63,878 bases of DNA from Calothrix sp. FI2-JRJ7 (GTDB lineage: Bacteria > Cyanobacteriota > Cyanobacteriia > Cyanobacteriales > Nostocaceae), in NCBI GenBank assembly GCA_019359675.1, contig JAHHGX010000021.1:1-63878 (forward strand), read 5' to 3'. Positions 118 to 31,569 of this stretch are shown here, one piece after another. The position numbers were made by a program, and so were the translations under genes. Position 1 is the stretch's first letter. The number at the start of each line of letters is the position of its first letter. Below the pieces are notes generated by a model. It saw nothing but the letters and a program-made list of their open reading frames with translations. It was not told where the DNA came from and ran no database searches.

Positions 118-194
118 AAACAGATACGCCCTTTTTGTACAAGAGTAGATTACCATATTTTGGCATTAGTGGGATAGGTTCATAAATTCATGCT

Positions 195-599
195 TTAATA
201 GAATGCGTCTATTCCTTCTTCATTTACTTCAAGTTGGATATACTCGCCTGGTCTTTTTAAAGCTGCTTCAATAAAGTCTGTTTCTAGAAAATCAATACCG
301 TCATCTGGTCCAAACGATTCTTCCTTTACACGGCGCCATTCCTCAAAGGGTAATGTTAGAGGATTACACTCAGTAGCATATACTACAAATGCCGGATTAT
401 CTGGAGTTGCTTGCTCAAAGGCGCCGTTTTTAAATAATCCTGGGATTCCATTGGACACAAGATAAATACCTTCGTTTCCTACTATTAATAGTCCTGGTCG
501 TTGTGTACTTTCATCACCATATATAGGAACATGACTTTCAGCATTTTTAGTATGCTCTAATAGCTTTTGAACATCTCGCTTCAAGAAATGCAATAGCAT
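195..599 (-). CDS. DUF3085-like protein
   Basis: A 134-residue soluble protein. The chosen start is the ATG at 599 because GAGGAGGAG lies 5 nt upstream; an upstream TTG at 626 would only add nine residues encoded by the ribosome binding site itself. Motifs include LLIVGNEGIYLVSNG near the middle and a C-terminal stretch with PFEEWRRVKEESFGPDDG, a layout I associate with the DUF3085 family found on plasmids and in accessory regions. The function of that family is unknown. No membrane segment or signal peptide is visible. It stands alone between the transposase fragment and another minus-strand unknown gene. The family assignment is from memory. Confidence 0.7.
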   Translation of the reverse strand: MLLHFLKRDVQKLLEHTKNAESHVPIYGDESTQRPGLLIVGNEGIYLVSNGIPGLFKNGAFEQATPDNPAFVVYATECNPLTLPFEEWRRVKEESFGPDDGIDFLETDFIEAALKRPGEYIQLEVNEEGIDAFY

Positions 600-626
600 T
601 AACTCCTCCTCGATTACTTGAATCAA

Positions 627-988
627 TAGTTTAATACATATGTATGGTAACTATCGCCTGACCTAAACTATTAAACTAAACGCAGGCTAGTTGCATTGTT
701 TGTAATTGTTCCATTAATATTTACATCACTGCCAAAATCAACGGCAACACAACCTATACCACAAACTACACCTACTTTGACGGTGCAAGCAAACACTCCT
801 ACACCAACCATTACAACTTTTGAGGCGCCACCATTAACCCTAAAAGTAATAATGTGATTATTATTACTTTATATAACGTAGCCCCTTGGATTGTAAAACT
901 TCAAGTAATCCAAATTTCTTTATTTATTTGCGCTTTGCCTACCACTGAGAATAAAAAGCAAAAGTACACGGCGCCTCCATAATTCAAA
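627..988. other. Intergenic stretch with a possible coding remnant
   Basis: No convincing gene. On the minus strand a frame stays open from about 869 to the stop at 671. It reads as a glycine- and valine-rich peptide ending in GSDVNINGTITNNATSLRLV, reminiscent of cell-surface repeat proteins but without a good start codon or ribosome binding site. One GGCGCC lies at about 822. I treat it as a possible decayed fragment only. Confidence 0.3.
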
Positions 989-1423: not shown

Positions 1424-1560
1424 GCATTAAACCTTGATTCTTGCTGCATTGCATAGCTTACTACAAAAGTACCAACCCAAGCGTACTGATGTATTCCTGT
1501 GTTTTATATTACTCATGAGTTAGGCTGGTGCCGAACTGTGAGGAGTATAATTTAGTACTA

Positions 1561-2595
1561 ATGTTAGAAGCGAAGTTTTTTGCGATAGAGCCAAAGTTGG
1601 AGGATTATTGGCGCGCGATAATACTGTTTGGTCGGAATGTAGCTAGTTACAAGTTCGCTCTGGCAAAGTCGCTTTTAGAACTGGCGCCTTCTGGTAAGAC
1701 TATCATCACGTTAGAAGATTTAGCAGAACCATATTCAAGGTATATCACCGAACATATAAAAGTGGCTGACACGCAAACAACTTCAACTTCTAGCCGTTTT
1801 TTAGATGCCTGTCGCCAATTTAACTCACAAGGGATATCAAAAACTAGACTCATTGATACCACTGTACGTCTGGGATTTGGAAACGTTATCGATGCGTTTC
1901 ACAATCTGAGTGCTGGAGCAACACCAGTTAGGTTTTTTACCGATGAGCGTAAAGGCGCCACTAAAGGAATTGTGCTGACCGATGAATTATTTCAACTATT
2001 ACAGGTGTTACAGGCAGAAAATTTACCGTTGGAAGTAGAAGCAAGGTGGCGCTTGGTAGAATCAGCGTGGGATTTAAAGATTTCATCAAAGCTAATATCT
2101 TATGATTCTACGCAAGAATTGTTGTTTGCAGTAAATGATTTGAGGCGCCGAATTGATGTAACGTCTTGCAGGGACGCACTTAATGGTTATCAAAAAGGTA
2201 AATGTTTCTATTCCTTTGCTGATATTTCAATAATTTCTGGGTCAGAAAACTTAGCTGATGTAGACCATTTTTTCCCATATAGGCTTTTTAATGATATCCC
2301 CAACATTAACGGTGTATGGAATCTTGTGCTTGCATCCCAGGAATGTAACAGAGGGGAAAATGGTAAGTTTGACAGATTGGTTGCTATAAAATACCTAGAG
2401 CGTCTGAATAATCGTAACGAGTTTTTAATTACTAGCCACCACCCACTGCGACAAACCTTAATGCTTCAAACAGGTAATACAGAGAAACAACGGCGCCAAT
2501 TCCTACAGTCTACTTATACTGCTGCTCAGTTAAAATTAGGTACTGGGCGTAATGATGGTTGGAAGGCGCCGTTTGAACATCCCGCAACATTTTAA
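1561..2595 (+). CDS. HNH endonuclease-family protein
   Basis: About 344 residues. An upstream in-frame GTG at 1528 exists, but GAGGAG at 1540-1545 favours the ATG at 1561. The N-terminal two thirds (YWRAIILFGRNVASYKFAL near residue 16) is an all-alpha-looking domain that I recognise only as common in HNH proteins of accessory regions. Near residue 233 comes DVDHFFPYRLF, followed by WNLVLASQECNRGE and KFDRL, a typical HNH metal-binding nuclease core: Asp-His, then Asn, then the second Asn pair. Such proteins cut DNA, often in restriction or abortive defence. It is the first gene of the same-strand cassette reaching 13.7 kb, 276 bp before the XRE regulator. Target and partner are inferred, not shown. 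Confidence 0.75.
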   Translation: MLEAKFFAIEPKLEDYWRAIILFGRNVASYKFALAKSLLELAPSGKTIITLEDLAEPYSRYITEHIKVADTQTTSTSSRFLDACRQFNSQGISKTRLIDTTVRLGFGNVIDAFHNLSAGATPVRFFTDERKGATKGIVLTDELFQLLQVLQAENLPLEVEARWRLVESAWDLKISSKLISYDSTQELLFAVNDLRRRIDVTSCRDALNGYQKGKCFYSFADISIISGSENLADVDHFFPYRLFNDIPNINGVWNLVLASQECNRGENGKFDRLVAIKYLERLNNRNEFLITSHHPLRQTLMLQTGNTEKQRRQFLQSTYTAAQLKLGTGRNDGWKAPFEHPATF

Positions 2596-2839
2596 GTTCT
2601 GTAAATAATTTTAATTTTGAGCAGGTGTATTCTGCAACGATGCCTGTTGCTTGATAAGTTTTTTTAGCTAGGCGCGCGTTGAATCATACTAGCTTGACCA
2701 AACAATTTTACCTAAGTATTAATACTGAAAATAAAAGATATAATAGATAATATTTTGTATCAAAAAAATAATGTACTTAGGAACTTTAACCGATTACAAC
2801 AAGTCATCAAGCTGAATATAATGTAACAATTTACATAGC

Positions 2840-2855
2840 GTCTGCTATAGCAGAC
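2840..2855. promoter_or_regulatory. Perfect 16-bp palindrome, probable operator
   Basis: GTCTGCTATAGCAGAC is its own reverse complement and ends 16 nt before the ATG of the XRE-type regulator at 2872. A palindrome so close to a small HTH gene is the usual arrangement for autorepression. If the regulator controls the downstream genes, binding here would set expression of the helicase cassette. Confidence 0.6.
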
Positions 2856-2871
2856 AGTGTTTGAAGTACAG

Positions 2872-3093
2872 ATGACTATCAAAAAGAACCCAGCGATTAA
2901 TCAACCTGAATTTGGGTACGTATTACGCGAACTCAGGCAGAAGGCTGGTTTAACTCAGGAGCAATTTGCAGTTGTTTTAGGTGTTACCTATACTACGGTC
3001 AACCGTTGGGAAAATGGGCACTCAAAACCATCACCGATGGCAATGAAACTTATTGAGAAGGTACAGCAAGAAATTGCTGAAGATTCTCAGTAG
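2872..3093 (+). CDS. XRE-family HTH regulator
   Basis: A 73-residue protein that is essentially one Cro/CI-type helix-turn-helix: YVLRELRQKAGLTQEQFA, then VTYTTVNRWENGHSKP. The ATG at 2872 is preferred over the GTG at 2857; the latter leaves only two bases between the start and the palindrome at 2840-2855. The protein has no added sensor domain, so it likely binds DNA as a dimer and represses its own promoter through that palindrome. It sits between an HNH gene and the two unknown genes preceding the helicase, as expected for the control gene of a defence or plasmid module. Confidence 0.85.
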   Translation: MTIKKNPAINQPEFGYVLRELRQKAGLTQEQFAVVLGVTYTTVNRWENGHSKPSPMAMKLIEKVQQEIAEDSQ

Positions 3094-3463
3094 GAAATCG
3101 AGGTATAAATAAAATAACAACAAGCGATTGTTAAGAGTGATAGATACTCACTGCTATAAACGCGATTTTTTCGTTTCCTGTCGGACGATGCGGAGAGTGT
3201 AAAGGTTATTATTTGTGTTCAGAGTCAAGCGAGAAACTAACCTTTTTTATGCTGTTGCATAAATTGAAAATAGCTTAATTTCTCTGTTGTTGAAGTCAAA
3301 TTTCAATCAATGCTTCACTCAAATCTAATACTCATAATATTTATAAGTTTCCTAATTGGCGCCTTTTTCAAAATTATGATGTTTTTTGAGAGCATTTTTA
3401 ATTAGTGGGATTACGCCAAGTTCATTGATGTCAGAATTATTGCATATCTACCTAATCACAAAT
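3094..3463. other. Intergenic region before the helicase-associated genes
   Basis: No gene seen. The stretch is AT-rich, contains a GGCGCC at about 3358 and several near-start codons in frame with the next gene (TTG 3386, ATG 3428). It probably carries the promoter of the three-gene helicase operon. Confidence 0.4.
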
Positions 3464-5146
3464 ATGATAAGTTACGAACAATGGAATACAGCGCTAATAT
3501 CCTATTTTACTAGTGGGATGCAGCGTAGTACAAGGATTTACTTAAGTATTGATAATGAAACGCTTAAAAGTATTGGTTGGCAATTCCAAAGAGAAAATGT
3601 TTTTGATAATTGGGTTTCGAGCTTTTTAGAAGCTGTAAAAGCGAAAGTTGTTGTCGATAATCAAGTTAACCTTAATGTTCTACGAGGTCGTAATGTAAAT
3701 GGTTTGCCCAGAGGAGTTGCATTTTTAGTAATAATGGTCTTAGCTGCTAATGATATGGCAGAAGAAGTAGAAGTTTCAGAAAGTAATTATTTTAAACGAC
3801 TACGAGAAATATTAAATTTGAAAGGCTATGGGCGCCCGTCAGGAATGACTAATGGTTCTAACGCTGAAGAACCATTATGGAAAGAATGGAATTATTGGCT
3901 GATGGAAAACGGTTTTGAAGCTTCAGCTATTCGTGGAAACGGTGGACGAATGACTTATATTAATTACCCAATTTCCCAAAGTTTATTACGTCGTACAGAT
4001 AAAGATAGATTGTTAGTATTGTTTAATGAAAAGCAATGGAGAGTTCAGTGGGATGCTCTAAATTTGTTTTCTCAAATTCGACGACTAAGAGAGCAATTAC
4101 CATCACATCTGAGAGAATTAGTTACGAGCAACAAAGAACGTCACGAAGCAATTGCCGATAGAATTCACGAAGTTCATCAGCAATGGCTAGCTGAAGGGCG
4201 CCCAAATGTATTAAACGGGAAAGTATGCAATTTAAATAATCGTATTTTTGCAGGATTGTACCGTGATGAAGATATTTTATTTGGGAGCGTTAATTATTAT
4301 TTGTATCCAAAACAAGTGCGAGGAAGACAAGTAACAACTATTAAATTACAAAATGAAGATAAAACTTATGATTTAATTGAAGAGCGTCCAGGATGGTATT
4401 TGCCTTTAGACTTTCAGTTAAGTGCAAGTGATTTAGAAAATGGCCAGGAATACTCAATTACTCAACCAACTGAAATTAAATCGCTTATTTTACCTTCACG
4501 AGACTTTTGGATATTAATACCAGACCCTGATAGCCCAGATGCTGGCACATACGCCACTTGGGGACAGCCACCACTTGGGACTCTATTTATTTTACTGTGT
4601 AAAAAAGAGCTTTTGCCAGATATGGAACGCCTACGGGATGAAAAATTAATTAGTTGGGATGAAGAAGTTGAACCATTTGATAATTCAAACTGGATTGAAC
4701 TTCATCAATGTATGGTTACTTCACAAGCATGGGACGGAATATTTATTAAAAATCAATCACTCAAGGATGCATTGCAACCAAGCGTCTCTTTATCGATAAG
4801 TTTTTCTGATGGATTACGTATACCTAAACAAAATGCATTTTGTCATGGTTATGCTCCTAAAGTTACTGTTTTTGGCTTTTACCCTCAAGTTGAATTAAAA
4901 GTAACTAGAATTATTGACAACTCGTTAATATTCAAGACAAACGTTTGTACGAATATAGCAAATACAATAGAGTGGGCGGCACCGGGGGATTATATTGTTA
5001 GCGCAATTTGTGGAAATAAATCAACTTCTAGGTTTATAAAAATAGTCGATTGGGACAGTTTAACGATAGAAAAAAACTATATATATGAACATATTTCTAT
5101 CGATTCGATGAATTGTATATGTGGCAGCTTAATTAAATCTTTATAA
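3464..5146 (+). CDS. Unknown protein upstream of the DUF1998-type helicase
   Basis: About 560 residues from the ATG at 3464 (MISYEQWNTALISYFTSG). In-frame starts at 3386 and 3428 are possible, but I recall the YEQWN..I.YF segment as near the start in helicase-linked relatives. The N-terminal half is mixed alpha/beta, with a conserved-looking block LREILNLKGYGRPSGM followed by EEPLWKEWNYWL and YINYPISQSLLRRTDKDRL. The C-terminal half looks beta-rich, possibly Ig-like. There are no nuclease or ATPase motifs and no membrane segments. It lies 42 bp before the 448-residue gene, which overlaps the helicase, so all three are probably co-transcribed. I infer a DNA-recognition or scaffold role; the family name is unknown to me. 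Confidence 0.6.
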   Translation: MISYEQWNTALISYFTSGMQRSTRIYLSIDNETLKSIGWQFQRENVFDNWVSSFLEAVKAKVVVDNQVNLNVLRGRNVNGLPRGVAFLVIMVLAANDMAEEVEVSESNYFKRLREILNLKGYGRPSGMTNGSNAEEPLWKEWNYWLMENGFEASAIRGNGGRMTYINYPISQSLLRRTDKDRLLVLFNEKQWRVQWDALNLFSQIRRLREQLPSHLRELVTSNKERHEAIADRIHEVHQQWLAEGRPNVLNGKVCNLNNRIFAGLYRDEDILFGSVNYYLYPKQVRGRQVTTIKLQNEDKTYDLIEERPGWYLPLDFQLSASDLENGQEYSITQPTEIKSLILPSRDFWILIPDPDSPDAGTYATWGQPPLGTLFILLCKKELLPDMERLRDEKLISWDEEVEPFDNSNWIELHQCMVTSQAWDGIFIKNQSLKDALQPSVSLSISFSDGLRIPKQNAFCHGYAPKVTVFGFYPQVELKVTRIIDNSLIFKTNVCTNIANTIEWAAPGDYIVSAICGNKSTSRFIKIVDWDSLTIEKNYIYEHISIDSMNCICGSLIKSL

Positions 5147-5188
5147 CCAATTTAAATTTAAATTATTTGTAGTTAATCATATTATATT

Positions 5189-6535
5189 ATGGCGCAACTT
5201 CGTTGGTATTTAGGGTATAAATATAGAAATAGTTCTGATGAACTAATTAAAAATATTTCAGAAAAGATTCATCAGCATAATTTGAGTAAATATATTCCTG
5301 TGTTACGTATAGAGAAGAGAATTAAGGCGAGAGGAGAATTTTATTTTTTTATTGCTGTCGAAAGTTCACAAAAAGGAGTAATACCTAAAGAAGTTTATGA
5401 GTCAAATTTTCTCAAGTTAAAATATTTTAAAATTCCTGCGGTCTATGAAGGTGCCAGCTTTACTTACGAAGATATCAAGCCGATGGTTGGCGCCAGTCAT
5501 GATGTTTGTGATTACACTAATCCTATACCGTATAAACCTTTACCAAAAATCATCAACGAGCATTGGTTTGATTTTACAGAGTCACAAATAACAAATTATT
5601 TATCTCAATTAAGTGATGCTTCAAGTAAATATAAGCAGCTACTTTACTGGTTATCAGCACTTGGTTATGGAACTTGGGAATCATTTAAAAAGACTTGTGA
5701 TAAATTAGAAATTCAAGAGCCGACAAGAGTTTTGCGTCGGCTAAAATTGTTAGGACATATTGAATTTTCATTAGATGGAAAGCGATGGTCAATAGCACCA
5801 ACAGCAATTGTTCAAATTCCTTCAAATTCAAGTTTACAAGAGTTTATATTATGTGGGCAACAAAGTGTAGATTTATTAAATAAACTACAACAATATACGT
5901 TGGTTAATTTTATAAATCAACCATTTGAAGATGCACCTCCTTGTATTCATATTCAAGTTGATAGCTTTAACAATATCTCTACCTTATACAACAATGTTGG
6001 TACTAATCTTTCTATAACAAATGCTGCTCAAGTATCAAAACAGTTGGCAAGCATATTACCCAATATTAATATTTGGAAAAATAATCTTGTTAAATTACCA
6101 AGCATTGTAACAAGTTGTTACAACTGGCAGAAATTTAATGGCAATAATTTTGTCGATTGTGACTTGCCAACAGAATCTGGAATGTATCAAATGTATAGCC
6201 AAGATACAAGCGTTCATACTCCGCTTCGTACCTTGTTTTACGACAAAGAAAGTAATTGTTGGCTCTGTGGCGACTGGTATGGTTTGCGATTCTTAGCGTT
6301 GCAACAAATCCAGAAAGCATGTATATTTATTTACAATCAACAAACGAAACATTTGGTAGTACCTGTATCACAAAGATTCCCAGAGATTTACGAGCGTGCG
6401 TTGGTTCTGGCATCAGGGATACTTCCTACTTATAAAGATTCGTATTTGCTTTATACCAAAATAGAACCAGATTTAGCAAATTTGCTCAGTTCTAAACTAA
6501 ACCTAACTTGTAGCGGGGAATCGACTTATGCATGA
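5189..6535 (+). CDS. Unknown winged-helix-like protein overlapping the helicase gene
   Basis: 448 residues, unrecognised. Residues about 170-205 (ESFKKTCDKLEIQEP, then VLRRLKLLGHIEF and GKRWSIAPTAIV) have the pattern of a winged helix-turn-helix, suggesting DNA binding. The rest is mixed alpha/beta without catalytic motifs, signal or membrane segments. Its stop codon lies inside the helicase coding sequence: the two genes overlap by 8 bp (ATGCATGA), a sign of translational coupling and of a shared complex. Its size and position recall accessory subunits of large helicase defence systems such as Druantia or DISARM, but I see no residue-level signature that names one of them. Confidence 0.6.
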   Translation: MAQLRWYLGYKYRNSSDELIKNISEKIHQHNLSKYIPVLRIEKRIKARGEFYFFIAVESSQKGVIPKEVYESNFLKLKYFKIPAVYEGASFTYEDIKPMVGASHDVCDYTNPIPYKPLPKIINEHWFDFTESQITNYLSQLSDASSKYKQLLYWLSALGYGTWESFKKTCDKLEIQEPTRVLRRLKLLGHIEFSLDGKRWSIAPTAIVQIPSNSSLQEFILCGQQSVDLLNKLQQYTLVNFINQPFEDAPPCIHIQVDSFNNISTLYNNVGTNLSITNAAQVSKQLASILPNINIWKNNLVKLPSIVTSCYNWQKFNGNNFVDCDLPTESGMYQMYSQDTSVHTPLRTLFYDKESNCWLCGDWYGLRFLALQQIQKACIFIYNQQTKHLVVPVSQRFPEIYERALVLASGILPTYKDSYLLYTKIEPDLANLLSSKLNLTCSGESTYA

Positions 6536-9500
6536 TTTGGTTGGAGCGTATCAAAGGCTTGACCGTATTTATCAGTTATATATCAAAAGCGCATTTCCGC
6601 TACGTTATACAGCATTAGCTACTGAGCGTGATGATATTCTTAAAAAACCAGGTATTTTGAGTCAGGCGCCGTTAGTTGAGCCAATTCCTGCCTACCCCTC
6701 ATCAGGCATGAATTTAGCAACTGCCGCAGCTAAATTACCTATTGGATATGATGATTTAGTTTCTTTGGGACAAATGATTTTTGACCCAGGCATTCCGCTT
6801 TACGAGCATCAATGGAAAAGCTTGGAAGCAGTAATTTTAAATAAGAAAGATATTGTCGTTACCACAGGTACGGGTTCGGGTAAAACAGAATGTTTCTTAT
6901 TGCCACTTTTAGCACAGTTAGCAAAAGAATCCGCGCTTTGGGCGCCTAGTTCGCCAGCAATTAGTCAATATAATTGGTGGAATGGTAATGGGAACCGAGT
7001 ATCGCAGTGGACACATGCACCTCGACCAAAAGCTTTGCGTGCATTAATTTTATATCCGCTTAACGCTTTAGTTGAAGACCAGCTAAGACGATTACGAAAA
7101 GCATTGGACACAAAGCAAGTTCATCAATGGTTAGATAGTGCGCGCGGTGGTAATCGAATTACATTTGGTCGTTATACTGGGCAAACAGCAGTTTCAGGGG
7201 AAAGAAAACAAGATAGTATCGAACGGTTACGACGAGAGTTAAGAGAACGCGAGCAACAATGGACAGAAATTCAGAAATTACAAGACCCTGAATTAAATTA
7301 TTATTTTCCGCGTGTCGATGGTGGTGAGATGTGGTCTCGTTGGGACATGCAAGAGTGTCCACCGGATATTTTAATTACAAACTACTCAATGCTCAACATC
7401 ATGATGATGCGAAGTATTGAGAATGATATTTTTAGTGCAACACATGATTGGCTTGCAAGTGACCCTAGTAATGAGTTTTTCTTAATTATTGACGAACTTC
7501 ATAGCTATCGCGGTACTCCTGGGACTGAGATAGCCTATATTCTCCGTTTGCTGTACTCACGTCTTGGATTAACACCAAATTCACCACAACTACGGATATT
7601 AACGACAACAGCGAGTCTCGAACAAAATTCACAGGGAATGGATTTTTTAAGAGAGTTTTTTGGGCGCAATAACTTTACATTTATTAGTGGGCAGCAAATA
7701 TCACCTCAACACCAGGCGCAGTCTCAGATAATATCGCATCAAAATGCATTTGCCAACTTTGCTCAGTCTGTTCAGCCCGATCCATTTAAACCAATGGTGC
7801 CACCAGATATTAACGATTCTCAAAGTGCGATGTCCAATTTAGCTCAACAGTTAGTAACCTCAATAACAGGAGTGTCTTCTGAAGAGCAATTAGGCAAAGC
7901 CTTGGTTACTATAAGTGCTGGTGATGCATTACGAGGAGCGTGCCAAGATGTTAGCGGCAGTGTGCGTGCGACAAATATCCAAGTATTAGATAAAAAACTT
8001 TTCCCAAGCACCAACAATAATAGTTCTGTATCAGATGCAATGCGGGGGCTACTTTTAGCATTAGGGATGTCTAAACTTAGTAATGGACGTTCTGTGCTAC
8101 CAGTACGTGGACATTTATTCTTTCATAACTTACAAAGCCTTTGGGTATGCTGTAATCCAGATTGTACAGATAGTAGTGTAAATCAAAGCGTAAGGCAAAA
8201 CCCACAAAATTCTAATCGTCCAACAGTAGGCGCCATTCACGCTACTCACAGCCTAACTTGTTCGTGTGGTTCGCGCGTCCTTGATTTAGTTGTATGCGAG
8301 GTATGTGGTGAAGTTTTTCTAGGAGGGTACAAGACAACTTCTAAAATTGGCACAAAAGATGTAGAAATTTTGACACCCGACCAGCCCGACCTTGAGGGTA
8401 TTCCTGACCTCGTAATTCTTAATCAACGCTATGGAAACTATCGTTTATTCTGGCCATTACCCCACGATGTACCTGCTTGGAGTAATAAACCGCAAGATTT
8501 AGAGTGGCAGGTTCATAGCAATAAGTGTAAGTGGGTGCAAGCAAAGTTAAATTCTTCGACAGGAATACTTTTAGAAGGCGCCGCTCCACCACAACAAAGT
8601 TTTGAAATAGCAGGATGGGTATACAAAGTTGAAGGTATTAACGCTTCTGAACAACGTGCTTTACCCACAAAATGTCCCCGATGTGATTCTGACTATAGTA
8701 AACGCGAGCAATTTCCTACTCCACTACGTATCCATCGCACAGGTTTTCAAAAAGCGTGTCAAGTACTAGCGAGTGGTTTACTTAGGGAAATGCCAGCACC
8801 ACCTACACCAACAAGCCGTTCGTCACGTAAGCTAGTTATATTTTCTGATAGTCGTCAGGACGCAGCGAAATTAGCAGCAGGTATGGAACGTGACCATTAC
8901 CGTGATATGGTACGTCGGTTGCTAATTGAGTCATTTCAAAGATATTGGGGAGACCTTGTAGCTTTTTTACGTGTTAGCTGTACGGGTAATACTATTGCAT
9001 TAGCTTCTTTGCAAGCCGAAAACCCGCTTCTTTATAGTGCCGTTACTGCACCACCAGAAGCTGAGGATATGTCCAAGCGCAACCAATTTGGCATCGCTTA
9101 TCCTAGCTTAGTTAGTGAAGCTATGTCCTGGCTCTTCGGCGCTCCTGCATTTAATCCACAAGCGCGCGACGAATGGCTTAATTTAATTCGACGCTATCCC
9201 GAACGTATTCCCTTATTAAATTTAAGACGGACAGTTCGCGATGCTTTACTTTTATATGGAATGTGTCCAGGTGGTAGCGATTTTCGAGCTTTAAACTACA
9301 GTACTGGACAAAACAAAAGTCAGCAGTGGGAACCTTGGTATAACTGTTATAACTGGACGAATAGTTCTGTTAGCTCAATTGTTAACGCTACAATCCAACA
9401 AACTAACCATATTACTCGGTTGGAAGATATGCTAACCGACGAGTTGATGTATGCACTATTTCAACATATTGCACGAACCCTTGAAGGTATTGGCGAAGGG

Positions 9501-12215
9501 TGGTTAAGTTATCAACCACAAGGAAACCCACCACAAAAGCTTGTAGAAGTATGTGAAGCAATTATCCGACAACTTGGTATTCGTAAACTACACCGCTATT
9601 CTCGCTATGTCCCTGTTGGTAATAATCTTTTACAACCTTATTTAGAACGTTATATCAAACGAACTGATTTGAAGGAATCAGAAGTAGAGCAACACTTACT
9701 TCTGTCAAAAGTAGTTATACCTAGTGCGAAAGGACTTGCTCTCGATCCAGATTATCTTTATCTCGTTTTACCACCAAACCCAGTTAATGGTTCGCGTCAA
9801 GGATATCGATGCCCTCAATGTAATGCTTTCTTTCTTCAACCGGCAGCGGGTATTTGCCCCGAATGTAATAGCGACCGTCGTTTTGATGACCAAAACATTC
9901 CTTCGATTAAACTTGTTACTGGAAAGACTTCAAGCGATTTTGATTATTACAATTATCTTTCTTCTGAATCTGGTTCGCCATTTCGGATGAATGCCGAAGA
10001 GCTAACAGGACAAACCGACAAAAGCGAACGAATGAGGCGCCAACGTAGGTTCCAAGATATTTTTATTGATAATGAAAATCCCCGTGTTCAAGGAATTGAT
10101 TTACTTAGCGTTACTACAACGATGGAAGCAGGAGTTGATATTGGTTCGCTACTTGCTGTAATGATGGCAAATATGCCACCCCGTCGCTTTAATTATCAAC
10201 AAAGGGTAGGACGAGCAGGGCGCCGAGGAGTAGGCGTTTCCTTGGCTGTAACATTTTGTCGAGGTCGCAGTCACGACGATTTTTACTTTCAACGCACAGA
10301 AAGTATAACTGGCGATCCTCCACCACCTCCTTATGTTGATATGGCAAGCGAACCGATTTTTAAACGAGTTTTGATAAAAGAAGTATTGAGACAAGTGTTT
10401 TCGGTTGCAAAAGAAAACCTAAAAACAGCAGGTATTATTTTAGACGATAGTGGCACTGATAACGTACACGGTGAATTTGGTGCGGTTGTTGATTGGGTAC
10501 ATTACAAGCCAGAAATAAATACTTGGTTAAGTAGTACAGCAAATCAACGCAAAATTTCATCAATATTAAGCAGTTTAGTGCCTCAAACAAAATTGTCTAG
10601 TGGCATTCAAGCGGCAATGGTGGGTTATTTATGTAATCAACTGATATTAGATATTCAGAGGGTTGTAGATGATTCAACTTACACTCAAGATAAACTCAGT
10701 GAAAGACTAGCTAATGCTGGGTTGTTACCGATGTTTGGTTTCCCAACGCGAGTACGCTTACTTTACACCAGGTGGTTGTCTCAAGCTAAACAATGGCCTC
10801 CAGAAACAGGAGTTGTAGACCGTGACCTTGATTTAGCTATCAGCCAATTCGCACCATCATCACAAACAGTTAAAGACAAAGCCGTTCACACTGCGGTAGG
10901 AGTAGTTGAGTTACGTCCTCAAGGTAGTAAAGGTAATTTAGTTTCACAAAGCGGATTTACACCTGCACTTCCAGATGACAATTATACGCTTGCTATTTGT
11001 GGAAACTGCCAAGCCGTAACATATCCTTATCAACCAAATCAACGCATAACTGGCAGCAAATCAAAAAAAGAACTATGTCTTGTCTGTGGGACAAAAGAAC
11101 TACGCTGTATTGACGCACGAGAACCGAAGGGATTTTTTACAGACTTACGTCCGCAGGACTTTGATGGACGATTTGAATGGCAACCACGTTCAACACGACC
11201 ATCATTAAGTGTTGATGCAAACATTGGTTCACCAACTAATTTACTCAATGCTTCGGTGTACGCATTTAATGAGAATATCATCACCGTTAATGATAATGGG
11301 GGTAAAGGTGGTTTTGAATTTCAACAAGCAAAAGTTTTTGGAGAACTTAAAGGAGGCGCCTATGCAGTTTCCCCAGAAAATAGTGAATCTGTAACTACTT
11401 CTGGGAGTAAATATACAATTGCACTACTATCTCGCCGAAAAACTGATGTTTTGCTAGTAAATTTGAATCAGTGGACAAAAGGGGTATTTGCGAATCCAAC
11501 TGATGTTATAGGTCGTGCAGCCTGGTACTCATTTGCATTTTGGTTGCGGGTTGCTGCTGCTTCATTGTTAGATGTTGATGCATTGGAATTGCAAGCAGGT
11601 TTCCGCTCACTTGGACAAAACGGAATGATTTTTGGTCAAGCATTCCTCTGCGACCAATTAGAAAACGGCGCCGGGTACTGTAAATATCTTGCCCAACCTC
11701 ATGTATTTCAACAAATTATGATGCAAGCAGACCCAAATACTTTGAATAGTGTTGCTGCTATATGGTTAAATTCTCAAGGACATAGTAAGGATTGCGATAC
11801 TTCTTGCAATTTGTGTCTACGCGATTATCAAAACCTTGTTTATCATGGTTTACTCGATTGGCGCCTCGCACTTGATATGGCACGTTTAGTATCGAATTCA
11901 ATCGTCAAAGCTGACTTAAGCTCGCCTTGGAGTAGCTGTATTCAGAATCCTTGGTTAAGTTTAGTGAACAATGCAGTTCCAGCAACACTTCAGCGTTTGG
12001 GCTATTGTCCTCCAACGCAATTTAAAACACTTACAGGTTACGTTCACCGAAATCCCAAACGTAAAATTATCTTAATATTACGCCATCCCCTGTGGCAAAA
12101 TGACCATCCAGAGTGGATTGCAGCTTCTACTGAAGCTTTAGCACAATATCCAACTTATACAGTTACAGATGCAAATCCATTTATGGTTCTTCGACGACCA
12201 GGAGGATATGCATAA
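6528..12215 (+). CDS. Very large DEAD/DEAH-box helicase with DUF1998-like C-terminus
   Basis: 1895 residues. Superfamily 2 motifs appear in order: Walker A GTGSGKTE near residue 114, Ia LILYPLNALVEDQ, DEAH-variant DELHSYRG near 321, TTTASLEQ, then after a long insertion FSDSRQDAAKLAAG near 773, and TTTMEAGVDIGS with QRVGRAGRRG near 1224. Cysteine pairs suited to zinc ribbons occur near 541, 580-600, 718, 1095 and 1490-1520. A final CDTSCNLCLRDY near 1757 is typical of DUF1998/DrmB-like ends. Length and the SRQDAAKLAAG block resemble DruE of Druantia; the DUF1998 part also resembles DISARM and MrfA-type helicases. It presumably translocates on or unwinds DNA using ATP. It overlaps the preceding gene by 8 bp. 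The reading frame is intact throughout. Confidence 0.9.
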   Translation: MHDLVGAYQRLDRIYQLYIKSAFPLRYTALATERDDILKKPGILSQAPLVEPIPAYPSSGMNLATAAAKLPIGYDDLVSLGQMIFDPGIPLYEHQWKSLEAVILNKKDIVVTTGTGSGKTECFLLPLLAQLAKESALWAPSSPAISQYNWWNGNGNRVSQWTHAPRPKALRALILYPLNALVEDQLRRLRKALDTKQVHQWLDSARGGNRITFGRYTGQTAVSGERKQDSIERLRRELREREQQWTEIQKLQDPELNYYFPRVDGGEMWSRWDMQECPPDILITNYSMLNIMMMRSIENDIFSATHDWLASDPSNEFFLIIDELHSYRGTPGTEIAYILRLLYSRLGLTPNSPQLRILTTTASLEQNSQGMDFLREFFGRNNFTFISGQQISPQHQAQSQIISHQNAFANFAQSVQPDPFKPMVPPDINDSQSAMSNLAQQLVTSITGVSSEEQLGKALVTISAGDALRGACQDVSGSVRATNIQVLDKKLFPSTNNNSSVSDAMRGLLLALGMSKLSNGRSVLPVRGHLFFHNLQSLWVCCNPDCTDSSVNQSVRQNPQNSNRPTVGAIHATHSLTCSCGSRVLDLVVCEVCGEVFLGGYKTTSKIGTKDVEILTPDQPDLEGIPDLVILNQRYGNYRLFWPLPHDVPAWSNKPQDLEWQVHSNKCKWVQAKLNSSTGILLEGAAPPQQSFEIAGWVYKVEGINASEQRALPTKCPRCDSDYSKREQFPTPLRIHRTGFQKACQVLASGLLREMPAPPTPTSRSSRKLVIFSDSRQDAAKLAAGMERDHYRDMVRRLLIESFQRYWGDLVAFLRVSCTGNTIALASLQAENPLLYSAVTAPPEAEDMSKRNQFGIAYPSLVSEAMSWLFGAPAFNPQARDEWLNLIRRYPERIPLLNLRRTVRDALLLYGMCPGGSDFRALNYSTGQNKSQQWEPWYNCYNWTNSSVSSIVNATIQQTNHITRLEDMLTDELMYALFQHIARTLEGIGEGWLSYQPQGNPPQKLVEVCEAIIRQLGIRKLHRYSRYVPVGNNLLQPYLERYIKRTDLKESEVEQHLLLSKVVIPSAKGLALDPDYLYLVLPPNPVNGSRQGYRCPQCNAFFLQPAAGICPECNSDRRFDDQNIPSIKLVTGKTSSDFDYYNYLSSESGSPFRMNAEELTGQTDKSERMRRQRRFQDIFIDNENPRVQGIDLLSVTTTMEAGVDIGSLLAVMMANMPPRRFNYQQRVGRAGRRGVGVSLAVTFCRGRSHDDFYFQRTESITGDPPPPPYVDMASEPIFKRVLIKEVLRQVFSVAKENLKTAGIILDDSGTDNVHGEFGAVVDWVHYKPEINTWLSSTANQRKISSILSSLVPQTKLSSGIQAAMVGYLCNQLILDIQRVVDDSTYTQDKLSERLANAGLLPMFGFPTRVRLLYTRWLSQAKQWPPETGVVDRDLDLAISQFAPSSQTVKDKAVHTAVGVVELRPQGSKGNLVSQSGFTPALPDDNYTLAICGNCQAVTYPYQPNQRITGSKSKKELCLVCGTKELRCIDAREPKGFFTDLRPQDFDGRFEWQPRSTRPSLSVDANIGSPTNLLNASVYAFNENIITVNDNGGKGGFEFQQAKVFGELKGGAYAVSPENSESVTTSGSKYTIALLSRRKTDVLLVNLNQWTKGVFANPTDVIGRAAWYSFAFWLRVAAASLLDVDALELQAGFRSLGQNGMIFGQAFLCDQLENGAGYCKYLAQPHVFQQIMMQADPNTLNSVAAIWLNSQGHSKDCDTSCNLCLRDYQNLVYHGLLDWRLALDMARLVSNSIVKADLSSPWSSCIQNPWLSLVNNAVPATLQRLGYCPPTQFKTLTGYVHRNPKRKIILILRHPLWQNDHPEWIAASTEALAQYPTYTVTDANPFMVLRRPGGYA

Positions 12216-12410
12216 CTAGTAGTAGTGCAAAAATTCTTATCTTAGATAATAAATCCTCCAACATTTTAATTTTCTCTCAAAAAGATTATCTAAAAAGGTG
12301 TATAAAGTTATATAAATTGAATAATTTCCCTCAAAGCTTTTGCAGCAGAAGAAGCTGTTTGGTCTTCAGTGCCGTCAATTGGATTGGCGCCGTCTTGTCC
12401 ACCAGCCAAA
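12216..12410 (-). other. Region after the helicase; short remnant on the minus strand
   Basis: No complete gene. On the minus strand a 36-codon open frame ends near 12317 and reads SDLAGGQDGANPIDGTEDQT followed by a short helix. It has no start codon of its own and looks like the tail of a lost gene. No clear terminator for the helicase operon was found. Confidence 0.25.
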
Positions 12411-12599
12411 TCACTTAAACTGCTTACCTATAAAACGAACTTTTATGTCACTTAATTCACATATCTGTTGATTTAACACATAATAAATTATTTTTATCAT
12501 CGAATGTTTAGGGGAGTTTTCATGGCAAGTAGAAATGTTAGGGCACTTGTAGTCAATTCCGGTCATTTCACGACATTCTAATCCCATCGGACAATACAT
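12411..12599 (-). CDS. Small cysteine-containing hypothetical protein, 62 residues
   Basis: Begins MYCPMGLECREMTGIDYKCP and continues with NISTCHENS, giving four cysteines in a CxxxxxC..CxxxxxC spacing that could bind a metal or form disulfides. The rest is a hydrophobic helix and a short basic tail. There is no obvious ribosome binding site, and it is convergent with nothing nearby, so it may be a real small protein or a chance frame. It sits in the gap between the helicase and the second HNH gene on the opposite strand. Confidence 0.4.
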   Translation of the reverse strand: MYCPMGLECREMTGIDYKCPNISTCHENSPKHSMIKIIYYVLNQQICELSDIKVRFIGKQFK

Positions 12600-12730
12600 A
12601 ATTGATGTACTAAAAGTAAATGTGAATTATATCGGCGCCTGATATCTTCAACAATACATTATTTAAGGTGCCTGCATTCCACAATCACCAATGTATGTAT
12701 AATGTAGTACGCTTACGTAGATATAATACT

Positions 12731-13702
12731 ATGACTAAAGACCTATCCTACTACTGTAAAAAGTTTTCCCCTAGAGTAAAACACACAAATCCTAGCGGTT
12801 TAAACGTCAACCGTAGCATAGGAACGGCGCCTAACAAACCAATTCTACTGTTATCGATAATCGAACTTATAAGCAGAGGAGAGATAAAAAAAAACCAAAT
12901 ACCTTTATCTGGAGAGCTTATTGCTACATTCCTGAACTTATGGCGCCACTTGGAACCGAACCGCAACCCAGACATAGGACAACCGTTTTTTTACTTACGC
13001 AGTGACGGTTTTTGGCACTTTCAACCAAACCCAGGATTTGAGTTAGCGATTAATTCAAAAGCAAAACTGGTATCGGCAGGCGCCCTTAAACAAGCTATAG
13101 AGTATGCGTACTTGGATGATGAACTGTGGCAAATATTACAAGATTCTCAAAATAGAAGCGTACTAATTCAGGTACTGATTAATGAATGGTTTCCAGGCGC
13201 CAGTAATATAGAAGGAATTTTACAAGTAAATGTCTTTGCGGAATTGCAGGAAGAATTAGAGCGCGCTGGAGGGAAAATTTACCAGCCTGAAGAACTTGAT
13301 ACTGAACAGAAAGTTATAGTTAGGGACGCAGCATTCTGTAAAATAATCACTTCTACTTATGGATATCGCTGTGCATTTTGTGGATATCAGGTGCTTGATT
13401 TGAATGGGCAAGGAATAGTGGATGGCGCCCACATTCTCCCATTCTCAAAATTCTACGATGACAAAATAGACAATGGGCTGGCGTTATGCAAGACCCATCA
13501 CTGGGCTTTTGACCGTGGTTGGTTTAGTATAAATGATGACTATACGATTATAGTTGTGGAAAGTTTGCGAGAACAGGCGGCGAACTGTAAACCAATGCGT
13601 GATTTTCTGGGAGAGACAATTTTACTACCAGCACAACAACAATATTATCCGCGTGTGGAAGCGTTGCAGTGGCATAGAGATAATGTATTTGATGCAGCCT
13701 AA
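12731..13702 (+). CDS. HNH endonuclease with sulfur-binding-domain-like N-terminus
   Basis: About 323 residues from the ATG at 12731; a GTG at 12668 would add 21 unconserved residues. The N-terminal part contains GTAPNKPILLLSIIELI and PFFYLRSDGFWHF, a pattern I associate with the N-terminal specificity domains of McrA-like HNH restriction enzymes, including the phosphorothioate (sulfur)-binding domain family. The C-terminal HNH core has CAFCGYQ near residue 214, DGAHILPFS near 230 and CKTHHWAFDRGWF near 253, all key Cys/His residues present. Such enzymes cleave modified DNA. It follows the helicase on the same strand, after a 515-bp gap, so it may be an independent type IV-like restriction gene in the same island rather than an operon member. 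Confidence 0.75.
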   Translation: MTKDLSYYCKKFSPRVKHTNPSGLNVNRSIGTAPNKPILLLSIIELISRGEIKKNQIPLSGELIATFLNLWRHLEPNRNPDIGQPFFYLRSDGFWHFQPNPGFELAINSKAKLVSAGALKQAIEYAYLDDELWQILQDSQNRSVLIQVLINEWFPGASNIEGILQVNVFAELQEELERAGGKIYQPEELDTEQKVIVRDAAFCKIITSTYGYRCAFCGYQVLDLNGQGIVDGAHILPFSKFYDDKIDNGLALCKTHHWAFDRGWFSINDDYTIIVVESLREQAANCKPMRDFLGETILLPAQQQYYPRVEALQWHRDNVFDAA

Positions 13703-13732
13703 ATAACTACAAAATACTGTTTAATAATAGAG

Positions 13733-27888: not shown

Positions 27889-30800
27889 TCAGTTCGGCAC
27901 TGTTTCAAATGCTCCCAGAAGTTTTAAAGTAGACTTTTCTGCCTCTGTTAAACCTGTAACGCTAGTAATGTTCATATTTTCATAGGGTTTAAGTACCCTT
28001 AGTGTTTTCAAGCACTCACCACCTTTTATATCCCAAAGCTTTATCGTCTCATCTTCGCTGGCACTGGCTACAGTTTTTCCATCAGGATTAAAAGTAACTG
28101 ACCTTACCCAGTTAATGTGACCCAGCAAAATTTTGAGGCATTTTCCTGCATTGATATCCCATATTCTGACTGTATTGTCTTCGCTAGCACTAGCGAGTAT
28201 ATTATCTTGAGGGCTAAAAGTAATCTCCCAAACCCAGTTATTGTGCCCATCTAAGGTTTGCAAGCATTTACCTGTGCTTACACTCCATATTTTTATTGTT
28301 TTGTCGTCACTACCCGAAGCAATAGTTTTACCGTCACAGCTAAATGCAACTGAACGCACCATACCTGTATGACCGTGCAAATTGTGGATGCATTTTTCAA
28401 TGCTAAGGTCGCTGATATCCCATATTTTTATTGTTTGGTCGCTACTACAGGTAGCTAAAAGACCGTTAGGGCTAAAGGCAACTGACTGCACCCAATGACT
28501 ATGACAGTGTAATATTTTTAGACATTCTCCAGTATAAATGTCCCATATCCTTACAGTTTTATCTTCGCTGCCACTAGCTAAAATATTACCTTGAGGGCTA
28601 AAAGCAACTGATACTACTATTGTAGTATGACCATGCAAAGTATTTAGGCATCGCCCAGTGCGAATATCCCAAAGCTTTATTTTCTCATCATCGCCACTAC
28701 TAGCTAAAGTTTGACCATCGCGACTAAAAACAACTGATTTTAAGGTATTGGTATGTCCTTCAAATGCTTTTATACAATTTCCTGTATGAACATCCCATAC
28801 CCTTACAATCCTATCTACACCACCACTTGCTATTAGATTACCTTGAGGGTTAAAGCATACTGACCGTAACCAATTAACATTTCCTTCAAAAGTTTTTACA
28901 CATTGACCAGTGTCAACGTTCCACAGCTTTACTCTTTGGTCGTGACTACCGCTAGCTACAATACTACCTTGCGGATTAAAAGCTACTGACTTTAAAACGT
29001 TAGTATGTCCCTGTAAAGTTTTTATACACTGACCAGTATTAACATCCCAAAGCCTTAATGTTTTGTCATTGCTAGCACTGGCTATAATATTACCTTGCGG
29101 ATTAAAAGCGACTGACTGTACATCGTGCGTGTGCCCTTTAAGGATATGGTGGCATTTTCCAGTCTCAATATCCCAAAGTCTAACTGTATTGTCATTCCCA
29201 CCGCTGGCTAGAGTCTTGCTTTGTAGGTTAAAGGCAATCGAACGCACCATAGCAGTATGACCGTGTAAAGTATTAATGCATTGACCAGTATTAATATCCC
29301 ATAATTTAATTGTTTGATCTGCGCTGCCGCTAGCTGCAATACCATCAGGACTGAAAGCAACCGACGATATCCAACTAGTGTGTCCTTGCAAAGTTTTAAT
29401 AGATTGGTAAGTATTTATGTCCCAAATTCTTACCGTTTGGTCAGTACTACCACTAATTATTAGTTGACCATCAGAGCTAATGGCACCTGAAAGTACCCAT
29501 CCCGTATGACCTGTCAATGTTTTAATGCACTGACCTGTGTTTACGTCCCATATTTTTAATGTCTCGTCTTCGCTACTGCTGATTAAAATTTCACCGTTAG
29601 GGCTAAAAACAACCGATGTTACCCAATTAGTGTGTTCTCCTGTAAACAATTTTTGAGTGTCAGCAATGTTCCACAGACAAACATTGCCGCTAGTATCACC
29701 TGTAGCCAAGAATTTTCCATCTGGGCTGAATGCTACTGATAACACATTACCAAAAATTTTAGTAAAAACTGATTTAATTATATGCGAGTGTGCAAAATTA
29801 ATAGAGCGTAGGTTCTTACCTTGGAGGTATGCCTGCGAAATAATCAATCCAGAGAAATCATAATTATTTAGCTCTTTATTTAATTGACAAAACAAATTTA
29901 GGATGTTCCCTGCTAAATATCCTAATATTCGTTGAGATTGATTTTGTAAGGTTTGCACAAATACTATTAGTCGATTTTCAATATCAACATCTACTAAATT
30001 ATTTATAATCGGTTGAAGAATAAGGCGGGCTTGAGTTTCTCTAACATAATCTTTTGCAGTTGCTTTTATTAAAGCGTATTTGTTGAAGTTTTCAAACTTT
30101 TTATTTCTTATTTCTGAGCTAATTTTCTCTATCAGCTGGTCTGTTATGTACTCCATGACAACATTTTGTAAAGAAAATCCTCGTTCATCTCTTTCAATTA
30201 ATGAACGCCAACTTAAATACTCTAGGCTCTCTAGTAATTTTGCTTGGGTAATTAATGGTATTATATCATCACGTAATTCGTTGACTGAGACTGCCTCTCG
30301 ATTAATAGCAAGCCAATACATAACTGACTTTTCTAAGCCTGACAAACGATTAAGCTGTTGAGCTAGTAAAGCACGGATACCATTAAAAACAGATGTAGAC
30401 TGCGATAAAAATTCTGTAATGTTACCAGCAAATAAGTCTTTAATTGAGGTTGCAACAATTTTTAAAGCCAAGGGATTACCGCTATAGCGTTCAATAATTG
30501 CAAGTATTTGTTCTTCTTCTCCAGACAACCCCTGAAAATATATGATTTTTCGTGCTTCTGACTTTAAACCAACTAAACGTAAACTTCTAATGGGTAAAGC
30601 ATCGCTTTCAAGTGCTATTAATTCAATTGGTTTCTCACGGCTAGTTATCACGACACAACTTTTATGAAATAACTCACCAATTAGCTTAAGTAGATCTCCA
30701 TACTCTTGATAACCTTCGCGATATTGCCATAATTCATTACCTGTTTGTAGAATTGATTCAATGTTATCAAGTATTATTAAACATCGAGAGGACTGTAAAT

Positions 30801-31569
30801 GAGAAATTAATCGCTTTATCTTATCACTTGGAGTTTTTGGTAAATCTGTCTCTTGTTGATTTGATATAAATTTTATTAAGTCATCTAAAATCTTTTCTAG
30901 TGGTGGAGATTCGCGAATACTTCGCCAAATGACATACTGAAACTGATTTTGAATATTTTGTACTAGTTTGGCACATAAAGCTGTTTTGCCAATTCCCCCC
31001 ATTCCTAACAGTGCCACAAGTCGGCATTTTTCATTTACAATCCATTGCTCTAGCGTAGCTAATTCTTCATCACGTCCATAAAAATGAGTAACATCTGGGA
31101 CTTCTACCAAATCTTGATACCTTTCTGTTACCTCTTGCTTGCTTCTTACTTTTGCAGATATTTTCGCTTGCTCTTTAGACTTTCGTGTTCTCCGTTTTTC
31201 CCACTCTATCTCAAGCTGCTTAATATTCTCTTGTTTATCTTTAGACCAAAGCGAAAGCGTAAATTGCCAGTATCGTGAACCTTGCTGATTGGGGCGCCTT
31301 TCCAAAATCTCCAAAAAATCTTCTAAATAGCTAAGTGCTTCCCTAATGGCTTCAACAGATAGCTCTCCCTTCGTTAGTTCTTTTAAAGATTGTAATGTTC
31401 CCTTAACTTCAAGCTTTGGGTTAGAATTACACACTTTTTGCCATCGACATTTTTCTAAGCCACGATAATAATAACAATTATCAATTTCATCACAAGCATA
31501 AGCCACCACCGCCTCTAATAAAAGCTTAACTCGTTGTTCAACCGCAGGACCGTAGCTACGTTTTGGCAT
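27889..31569 (-). CDS. STAND NTPase: NB-ARC domain with 14 WD40 repeats
   Basis: 1226 residues. A helical N-terminus (about 1-160) of unknown type precedes an NB-ARC ATPase: Walker A LLGMGGIGKTALC near 190, Walker B CLIILDNIESIL near 260 and VVITSREKP. A helical linker follows, then 14 WD40 repeats from about 610 to 1205 (each ending like TLKIWDVNTGQC), enough for two seven-bladed propellers. The closing NITSVTGLTEAEKSTL is usual in cyanobacterial members. STAND proteins act as ligand-sensing switches, in signalling or phage defence. The N-terminal effector has no nuclease or TIR signature that I can see. The gene is bracketed by MITE copies and contains only one GGCGCC. Confidence 0.9.
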   Translation of the reverse strand: MPKRSYGPAVEQRVKLLLEAVVAYACDEIDNCYYYRGLEKCRWQKVCNSNPKLEVKGTLQSLKELTKGELSVEAIREALSYLEDFLEILERRPNQQGSRYWQFTLSLWSKDKQENIKQLEIEWEKRRTRKSKEQAKISAKVRSKQEVTERYQDLVEVPDVTHFYGRDEELATLEQWIVNEKCRLVALLGMGGIGKTALCAKLVQNIQNQFQYVIWRSIRESPPLEKILDDLIKFISNQQETDLPKTPSDKIKRLISHLQSSRCLIILDNIESILQTGNELWQYREGYQEYGDLLKLIGELFHKSCVVITSREKPIELIALESDALPIRSLRLVGLKSEARKIIYFQGLSGEEEQILAIIERYSGNPLALKIVATSIKDLFAGNITEFLSQSTSVFNGIRALLAQQLNRLSGLEKSVMYWLAINREAVSVNELRDDIIPLITQAKLLESLEYLSWRSLIERDERGFSLQNVVMEYITDQLIEKISSEIRNKKFENFNKYALIKATAKDYVRETQARLILQPIINNLVDVDIENRLIVFVQTLQNQSQRILGYLAGNILNLFCQLNKELNNYDFSGLIISQAYLQGKNLRSINFAHSHIIKSVFTKIFGNVLSVAFSPDGKFLATGDTSGNVCLWNIADTQKLFTGEHTNWVTSVVFSPNGEILISSSEDETLKIWDVNTGQCIKTLTGHTGWVLSGAISSDGQLIISGSTDQTVRIWDINTYQSIKTLQGHTSWISSVAFSPDGIAASGSADQTIKLWDINTGQCINTLHGHTAMVRSIAFNLQSKTLASGGNDNTVRLWDIETGKCHHILKGHTHDVQSVAFNPQGNIIASASNDKTLRLWDVNTGQCIKTLQGHTNVLKSVAFNPQGSIVASGSHDQRVKLWNVDTGQCVKTFEGNVNWLRSVCFNPQGNLIASGGVDRIVRVWDVHTGNCIKAFEGHTNTLKSVVFSRDGQTLASSGDDEKIKLWDIRTGRCLNTLHGHTTIVVSVAFSPQGNILASGSEDKTVRIWDIYTGECLKILHCHSHWVQSVAFSPNGLLATCSSDQTIKIWDISDLSIEKCIHNLHGHTGMVRSVAFSCDGKTIASGSDDKTIKIWSVSTGKCLQTLDGHNNWVWEITFSPQDNILASASEDNTVRIWDINAGKCLKILLGHINWVRSVTFNPDGKTVASASEDETIKLWDIKGGECLKTLRVLKPYENMNITSVTGLTEAEKSTLKLLGAFETVPN

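Follow-up and report, generated by a model that had tools for sequence, protein, structure and literature searches.

A probable Druantia type IV-like operon between two HNH neighbours in Calothrix sp. FI2-JRJ7

Druantia type IV, published in 2021 and reported from 11 phyla, consists of DruE, DruF and DruL without DruM and DruG, according to the available part of its description (PMC8565338). The accessible portion of a 2025 preprint classes Druantia types I and II among the type IV CoCoNuTs, their CnuB homologue being inactivated, and places an inactivated Vsr domain at the end of DruE in both types (PMC12458937). In Druantia III, DruE reportedly engages 3'-tailed DNA and intermediates containing single-stranded DNA (PMC13192584). 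Within these partial sources a sensor, DruH, is proposed for type III only. Here we describe a locus of the cyanobacterium Calothrix sp. FI2-JRJ7 (contig JAHHGX010000021.1; the whole analysed stretch of 63,878 nucleotides is called the window) in which three adjacent genes, druF, druL and druE, very probably form a Druantia type IV-like operon of a divergent, widespread sub-branch. The operon lies beside an XRE-type regulator gene and between two HNH genes, HNH1 and HNH6. A first-pass annotation had proposed all six genes as a candidate defence cassette, a reading as one system that is not supported.

Identity and conservation of the core

The identity of the core is well supported. DruE (6528..12215, forward strand; 1895 amino acids, aa), a superfamily 2 (SF2) helicase of the YprA family, matches the PADLOC profile PDLC00051 DruE4 at 1602 bits over residues 2-1892, nearly its full length. 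The DruL-like protein (5189..6535; 448 aa) matches PDLC00057 DruL4 with an E-value of 4.8e-21 (residues 150-435, profile 5-299 of 309), and the DruF-like protein (3464..5146; 560 aa) matches PDLC00054 DruF4 with an E-value of 4.1e-18 (profile 1-244 of 678). No DruM or DruG model was matched by the six genes in PADLOC; further genes were scanned with Pfam only, and the organism's own genome was not searched. Pfam and NCBIfam gave no family for DruF and insignificant ones alone for DruL, which would explain why the two proteins had earlier gone unrecognised and why the helicase had seemed to lack Druantia partners. The PADLOC profiles label both, and the combination of DruF, DruL and DruE is the definition of Druantia type IV. 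The supposed novelty of the arrangement thus gives way to a named, complete system, matched strongly by DruE and moderately by DruF and DruL.

Other parts of the first-pass annotation fared better. All six open reading frames (ORFs) were found on the forward strand, the SF2 helicase has the 1895 residues given for it, and a helicase-centred operon of defence-type genes is indeed present. The DUF1998 label of the helicase was not recovered, a Pfam scan with E up to 1 listing none. Methyltransferase genes had been called absent, and no such family is listed at the locus (9 proteins in Pfam at E up to 1, 10 proteins at E up to 0.01); the absence of phospholipase genes also stands, save for a PLDc_2 match below cut-off in HNH6 (E 0.11), the sole phospholipase-D match. 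Within the core, 42 bp separate druF from druL, and druL overlaps druE by 8 bp. The outer gaps measure ~260 bp between HNH1 and the XRE gene, ~370 bp between the XRE gene and druF, and ~515 bp between druE and HNH6, so that spacing alone sets the core apart from these three genes. An alternative start of druF lies at 3386; the family alignment agrees with 3464.

DruE carries GTGSGKT at residues 114-120, DELH at 322-325, QRxGRxGR at 1225-1232 and several CxxC pairs, and its helicase motifs are invariant in 16 aligned rows. It matches the solved structures 9wae, named 'Helicase' (E 1e-170), and 9tu7. The tail after residue 1796 has no conserved nuclease signature: across 35 of the 36 clade rows, not one acidic position reaches 85% conservation. 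This agrees with the inactivated Vsr domain reported for types I and II in the available text of PMC12458937, and judging from its sequence DruE appears to have no recognisable nuclease of its own. DruF is predicted to have a helical N-terminal part and a beta-rich C-terminal part, with an immunoglobulin-like (Ig-like) sandwich at residues 440-534 (~4781-5065, forward strand). DruL (AlphaFold 2 pLDDT 87.2) has a winged-helix-like region at residues 141-258 (5609..5962, forward strand). Foldseek returned no match for either protein at E up to 0.001, and none of the DruF VIA rows (0/50) extends below residue 257, so that the helical part of DruF is left unmatched. A sequence search for solved structures related to DruL or DruF likewise gave nothing at E up to 0.1, and a pattern check found no P-loop of the GxxxxGK[ST] type in either.

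The core is conserved well beyond Calothrix. The survey covered 27 regions from genomes, 80 named loci (the best 80 of 560 relatives) and the window. These 108 DruE loci amount to ~106 distinct ones, and the 43 with an extra DruL domain (see below) to ~42, because L058 and L070 (11,688 bases each) and L054 and L107 (21,032 each) are very probably the same contigs. Loci from a viral scan (L147-L173) were labelled and left out of the counts, and ORFs came from a simple greedy caller in which small genes may be wrong. The order druF-druL(-druL)-druE, adjacent on one strand, is found at 66/108 loci when ORFs below 90 aa are ignored and fused F-L genes are counted, and it spans cyanobacteria to Chloroflexota and Poribacteria. 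The remaining 42 loci include cut contigs, broken genes, extra internal genes, partners missed by the profiles and other kinds of DruE (L055, L056, L066). The expected co-occurrence of the three core genes therefore holds; it does not extend to HNH1 or the XRE gene, and hardly to HNH6. The system is patchy: DruE4 matches (E up to 1e-150) occur in 23 of 386 genomes of the phylum, and the DruL protein was matched in 5/60 relatives. In Dulcicalothrix desertica (L058/L070), the nearest relative, druE is split into two frames of 294 and 1554 aa, and the system may thus be inactive there. Two clade members have other genes directly upstream of druF, a PIWI/argonaute gene (pAgo, 1039 bits; L050 3548-5779) and a DndB homologue (317 bits; L049 4498-5586).

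Several points weigh against the type IV assignment. DruE2 models score 1543 and 1516 bits on DruE, the former nearly equal to the type IV score, and DruF covers just the first 36% of its PADLOC profile, the N-terminal part. The profile matches are hmmscan E-values rather than PADLOC's own thresholded system call. As for the limits of the core, HNH6 also follows DruE in D. desertica, so that a functional link within the genus is possible, and matches to an HNH6 profile lie near the DruE loci L116, L132, L133 and L138, at full strength in L132 (one of the profile's three members) and at E 4e-8 to 4e-10 in the other three. To our knowledge there is no phage test of this druF-druL-druE operon.

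The HNH and XRE neighbours

The two HNH genes bound the locus. HNH1 (1528..2595, forward strand; 355 aa), with weak PtuB and Cas9-HNH matches, is a neighbour outside the system. HNH6 (12731..13702, forward strand; its ORF opens at 12668, with ATG at 12731) encodes a protein with a sulfur-binding domain (SBD) and an HNH domain, whose membership of the system is unsupported. Both had been called nucleases. This stands for HNH6 (Pfam HNH_2, 46 bits), and HNH1 falls just under the Pfam HNH_4 cut-off (21.9 bits vs 22). On plasmid2 of Calothrix NIES-4105 (L183), homologues of HNH1 (77%) and HNH6 (85%) occur with other flanking genes and no Druantia between them; a gene annotated as filamentous hemagglutinin lies there instead. 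In blastn this plasmid aligns to window positions 181-646 and 995-2621 (81 and 75% DNA identity), to 12724-13704 (80%) and, in further blocks of partly different order, as far as 15823 (78-90%). The unaligned stretch, 2622..12723 on the forward strand as given by the block ends, contains the XRE gene and druF-druL-druE. The 17-kb L183 stretch has no druF, druL or druE match, and its record has no DruL match. On two Nostoc plasmids, both HNH genes lie ~0.6 kb apart without Druantia. The XRE gene and the core thus sit between two HNH genes of a neighbour set otherwise seen on cyanobacterial plasmids, and core and HNH genes each occur without the other. No exact shared or inverted repeat of at least 12 bases, as expected of transposon-like ends, was found between 2551-3463 and 12216-12800.

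These comparisons bear on two other explanations. According to one, the six genes form a single new helicase-plus-nucleases system with HNH1 and HNH6 as effectors. The genes are adjacent and share a strand, DruE has no recognisable nuclease, HNH6 stays beside DruE in D. desertica, and the HNH nickase ZorE reportedly acts together with Druantia III (PMC13192584). However, Calothrix NIES-4105 and the two Nostoc plasmids show HNH1, HNH6 and outer neighbours linked in the absence of Druantia, the gaps around the core far exceed those within it, and among the surveyed loci HNH6 at ≥80% identity accompanies DruE in D. desertica alone (L058, L070). HNH1 relatives were found in 10 plasmid records, and all three cyanobacterial ones also hold an HNH6 homologue 0.6-4.4 kb away; the 3 records with DruL include none of them. 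For HNH6, relatives were counted in 95 plasmid records, and a phmmer search with HNH1 against the predicted proteins of 135 stretches returned the window's own copy only. The single six-gene system is thus very unlikely, the plasmid comparison having led us to discard it. What had looked like such a system resolves into a named core with mobile neighbours, which prevents a false system from being defined. On a Calothrix PCC 6303 plasmid, a closely related druF has a different HTH-HNH gene (457 aa; L203 95-1468) upstream in divergent orientation, whose product does not significantly match HNH1 or HNH6 (best E 1.5).

The other explanation, which we consider somewhat improbable, makes HNH6 a predicted sulfur-sensing nuclease, like SspE or phosphorothioate-dependent restriction enzymes, that partners host phosphorothioation (Dnd) rather than Druantia. 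Its N-terminal half matches the solved domain SBDHga1 (8h0l; E 2.9e-18) and its HNH part that of TagI (E 1.9e-5). Contig C67 of the same genome has dndC, dndD (680 bits, cut-off 246) and dndE (129 bits, cut-off 72). HNH6 relatives stand beside dndB-E-D-C in Chlorohelix and beside a Dnd-associated methyltransferase gene in Picosynechococcus. On the other hand, HNH6 reaches 132.3 bits against NF045808, below the cut-off of 180, and its presumed conserved sulfur-pocket His appears to be Asn (APNKP), a position equated with ScoMcrA H116 (PMC6224610, available part) by inference, ScoMcrA itself not having been aligned. Dnd genes lie nearby in 2/7 plasmid records whose surroundings were read, with none in the other 5. 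Moreover, dndC occurs in 42/43 listed genomes of the host family (94/386 in the phylum); being near universal there, it makes the co-occurrence of dnd and HNH6 uninformative. The same count led us to reject a specific partnership between dnd and this Druantia: dndC is present in 5/5 tested genomes, but a frequency of 42/43 in the family leaves no association. A Dnd-related role of HNH6 is thus possible, with the Asn at the pocket position as a warning.

The XRE gene (2857..3093, forward strand; 78 aa) encodes the small regulator that had been predicted (HTH_3, 56.6 bits in Pfam). It lies within the stretch missing from Calothrix NIES-4105 plasmid2. In front of it, at 2840..2855, is a perfect 16-bp palindrome, GTCTGCTATAGCAGAC, a candidate operator. 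At up to 2 mismatches the window has one match vs 0.02 expected, and 2 of 100 shuffles had one; elsewhere in the genome there is none, even with 1 mismatch allowed. The protein has 7 further matches in its own genome, including 77, 62 and 49% identity on contigs C43, C82 and C41; the neighbours of these paralogues were listed as ORFs, and those on C82 alone were annotated. No XRE homologue lies beside druF in the other surveyed loci, the sole locus with a match being L066, on contig C82, which has no GTCTGCTATAGCAGAC site at up to 3 mismatches. A dedicated Druantia regulator was therefore rejected, given paralogues elsewhere in the genome, none beside another druF, and no palindrome at L066.

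Elsewhere in the window, a PvcA/DIT1-type domain is fused to a TauD dioxygenase domain (45078-46907), and two proteins have many WD40-repeat matches (27889-31569 and 37960-39081). GGCGCC, also a palindrome, is found 152 times in the 63,878 bases (38.4% G+C), where base composition alone would predict ~3. GCGATCGC occurs once.

A sub-branch with an altered DruL

The DruL of the window bears an extra N-terminal domain of ~100 residues (residues 2-102; 5192..5494, forward strand), which recurs at 43/108 loci including the window (E up to 1e-4). Its predicted fold is ferredoxin-like and appears to resemble the NGN domain of NusG. Homology to NusG, tried by sequence, was not supported. The hhalign score of 17.1 against NusG exceeds eight column-shuffled controls (7.9-11.5) and a reversed control (10.3), and six unrelated alignments gave 10.9, 14.5, 15.1, 15.4, 19.1 and 26.5; the test alignment comprised 6 NusG sequences. 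In Pfam, 26 N-domains gave NusG in 2 members (best E 0.073), and five further families were each matched by a single member, two with a lower E than NusG.

N-domain loci group together in the DruE tree, where the label requires 5 changes (FastTree, 82 DruE rows, with long-branch warnings). Rows inside the clade without a detected N-domain are L071, whose contig starts inside druE, L076, L082, L086, L087, L104 and L109; L107 is next outside it. Two genes found near other type IV loci are labelled at none of the N-domain loci: a C5 methylase (PF00145 in L137; 17/65 others vs 0/43) and DruK, a PD-(D/E)XK protein (PDLC00060 in L132; 14/65 vs 0/43). Given at least 4 kb on one side, the counts are 17/50 and 13/50 vs 0/38. 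L109, inside the clade and without the domain, has the C5-methylase label. These labels, and that of the transglycosylase below, rest on profiles made from sequence clusters, with one or two members of each checked against Pfam or PADLOC.

Another gene set recurs near clade members. It comprises a GNAT protein, a DpdA-like transglycosylase (PDLC02807, weak, E 4.5e-6), a ~290-aa unknown and a BrxC-like ATPase of ~870-1460 aa. This module lies near 16/43 N-domain loci vs 1/65 others, the one being L076 of the same clade (16/38 vs 1/50 with at least 4 kb on one side). Module-bearing cores are L067, L073, L075, L076, L079, L084, L090-L094, L097-L100, L102, L131 and L181, from cyanobacteria, Chloroflexota, Poribacteria and a few others; L095 and L096, also considered, are not borne out by profile search. 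The core on plasmid pOSC7112.01 of Oscillatoria nigro-viridis PCC 7112 is followed downstream by the module within 8 kb. Matches to the transglycosylase at 26-29% identity come from three plasmid records with a dpdA or tgt annotation. On a Haloplanus plasmid a homologue stands beside queC, queE, a BrxC-like ATPase, a HerA-like ATPase, a weak PglZ match and a GNAT gene. A literature search of open-licence PMC found no paper joining Druantia with a transglycosylase or with DpdA, and the main text of the BRC paper, as available, lacks the word 'Druantia' (PMC12839542).

The clade could accordingly be viewed as a hybrid with this base-modification module, the window copy having been reduced by its loss. 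Besides the counts above, the sole transglycosylase among 386 genomes of the phylum (E up to 1e-20; G197) shares a contig with a DruE of this clade, ~22 kb away. That copy, however, has two in-frame stops and its DruE one, 27/43 loci show no module within the stretch read, its position and strand relative to the core vary, and modules of this kind exist without Druantia in BRC systems (PMC12839542, available text) and on the Haloplanus plasmid. A search of the window genome at E up to 1e-20 turned up no transglycosylase of this kind, leaving a 31% partial match on contig C65 (E 2.6e-8). We regard the hybrid as unlikely. Equally doubtful, in our estimate, is a bolder proposal, in which the clade is a separate Druantia subtype whose DruL gained a NusG-like NGN domain that would tie the helicase to RNA polymerase transcribing invading DNA. 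The self/non-self signal, where present, would then be a base modification made by the transglycosylase, in place of the C5 methylation found near other type IV loci.

The survey brings to light a large branch of Druantia in which DruL is changed, the methylase and DruK are mostly lacking and a base-modification neighbour recurs. The DruL N-domain and this neighbour are the part worth a specialist's time. If the N-domain does bind RNA polymerase, it would suggest a definite and testable way of sensing for those Druantia types for which the available sources describe no trigger.

Proposed action and comparison with known systems

By analogy, the DNA-structure logic of Druantia III may hold for the type IV-like core of the window, with DruL and DruF as adaptors. 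DruE, as an ATP-driven SF2 helicase, would load on phage DNA with single-stranded stretches, such as replication or recombination intermediates. DruL, with its winged helix and NGN-like domain, and DruF, with its helical part and Ig-like sandwich, may serve as sensor or adaptor that recruits or gates DruE. Because the core has no modification gene or recognisable nuclease, selectivity would come from DNA structure and not from a self-mark; for destruction the system would depend on replication being blocked or on nucleases from elsewhere. All of this action on phage we infer.

Among described systems, ARMADA, DISARM and BRIGADE share a YprA-family helicase with the window, going by the accessible part of PMC12458937, but no BrxHII-like helicase, PglX-like methylase or 7-deazaguanine genes were seen among those scanned at the locus. 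Matches to DrmA of DISARM are weak (25-27 bits, on the DruE helicase motifs), and DrmB, DrmC and a methylase were not matched. An ARMADA-like set does occur elsewhere in the genome, on contig C82 (25000-44000; L066), with a PglX/DrmMI-like methylase (1425 aa), a GajB/UvrD-like protein (693 aa), a second YprA-family helicase (1910 aa) and the XRE paralogue of 62% identity nearby. BRC systems, in the available text of PMC12839542, are resembled by the Haloplanus set and by the module near other clade members, but their GNAT, transglycosylase and BrxC-like genes are absent from the window. HNH6 has the SBD and HNH domains of the phosphorothioate-dependent restriction enzymes of NF045808, but scores under the family cut-off and appears to have Asn for the pocket His.

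The Druantia types come closer. Druantia III (DruH-DruE) shares the DruE-family helicase, but the profiles name no DruH at the window and DruE lacks an HKD pattern. Type II is approached through the DruE2 models (1516-1543 bits) and through some DruF2 models, whose C-terminal part matches the window DruL; it requires, however, the DruM methylase and DruG, neither matched by the six genes. From type IV the window departs in its short DruF (560 aa vs 678-703 for DruF4 models, with the N-terminal third matched), in the extra N-terminal domain of DruL, and in belonging to a group in which none of 43 loci has, within reach, the DruK-like or C5-methylase-like genes of 14 and 17 of the 65 others. With type IV it shares the composition itself, DruE, DruF and DruL with no DruM or DruG among the six genes.

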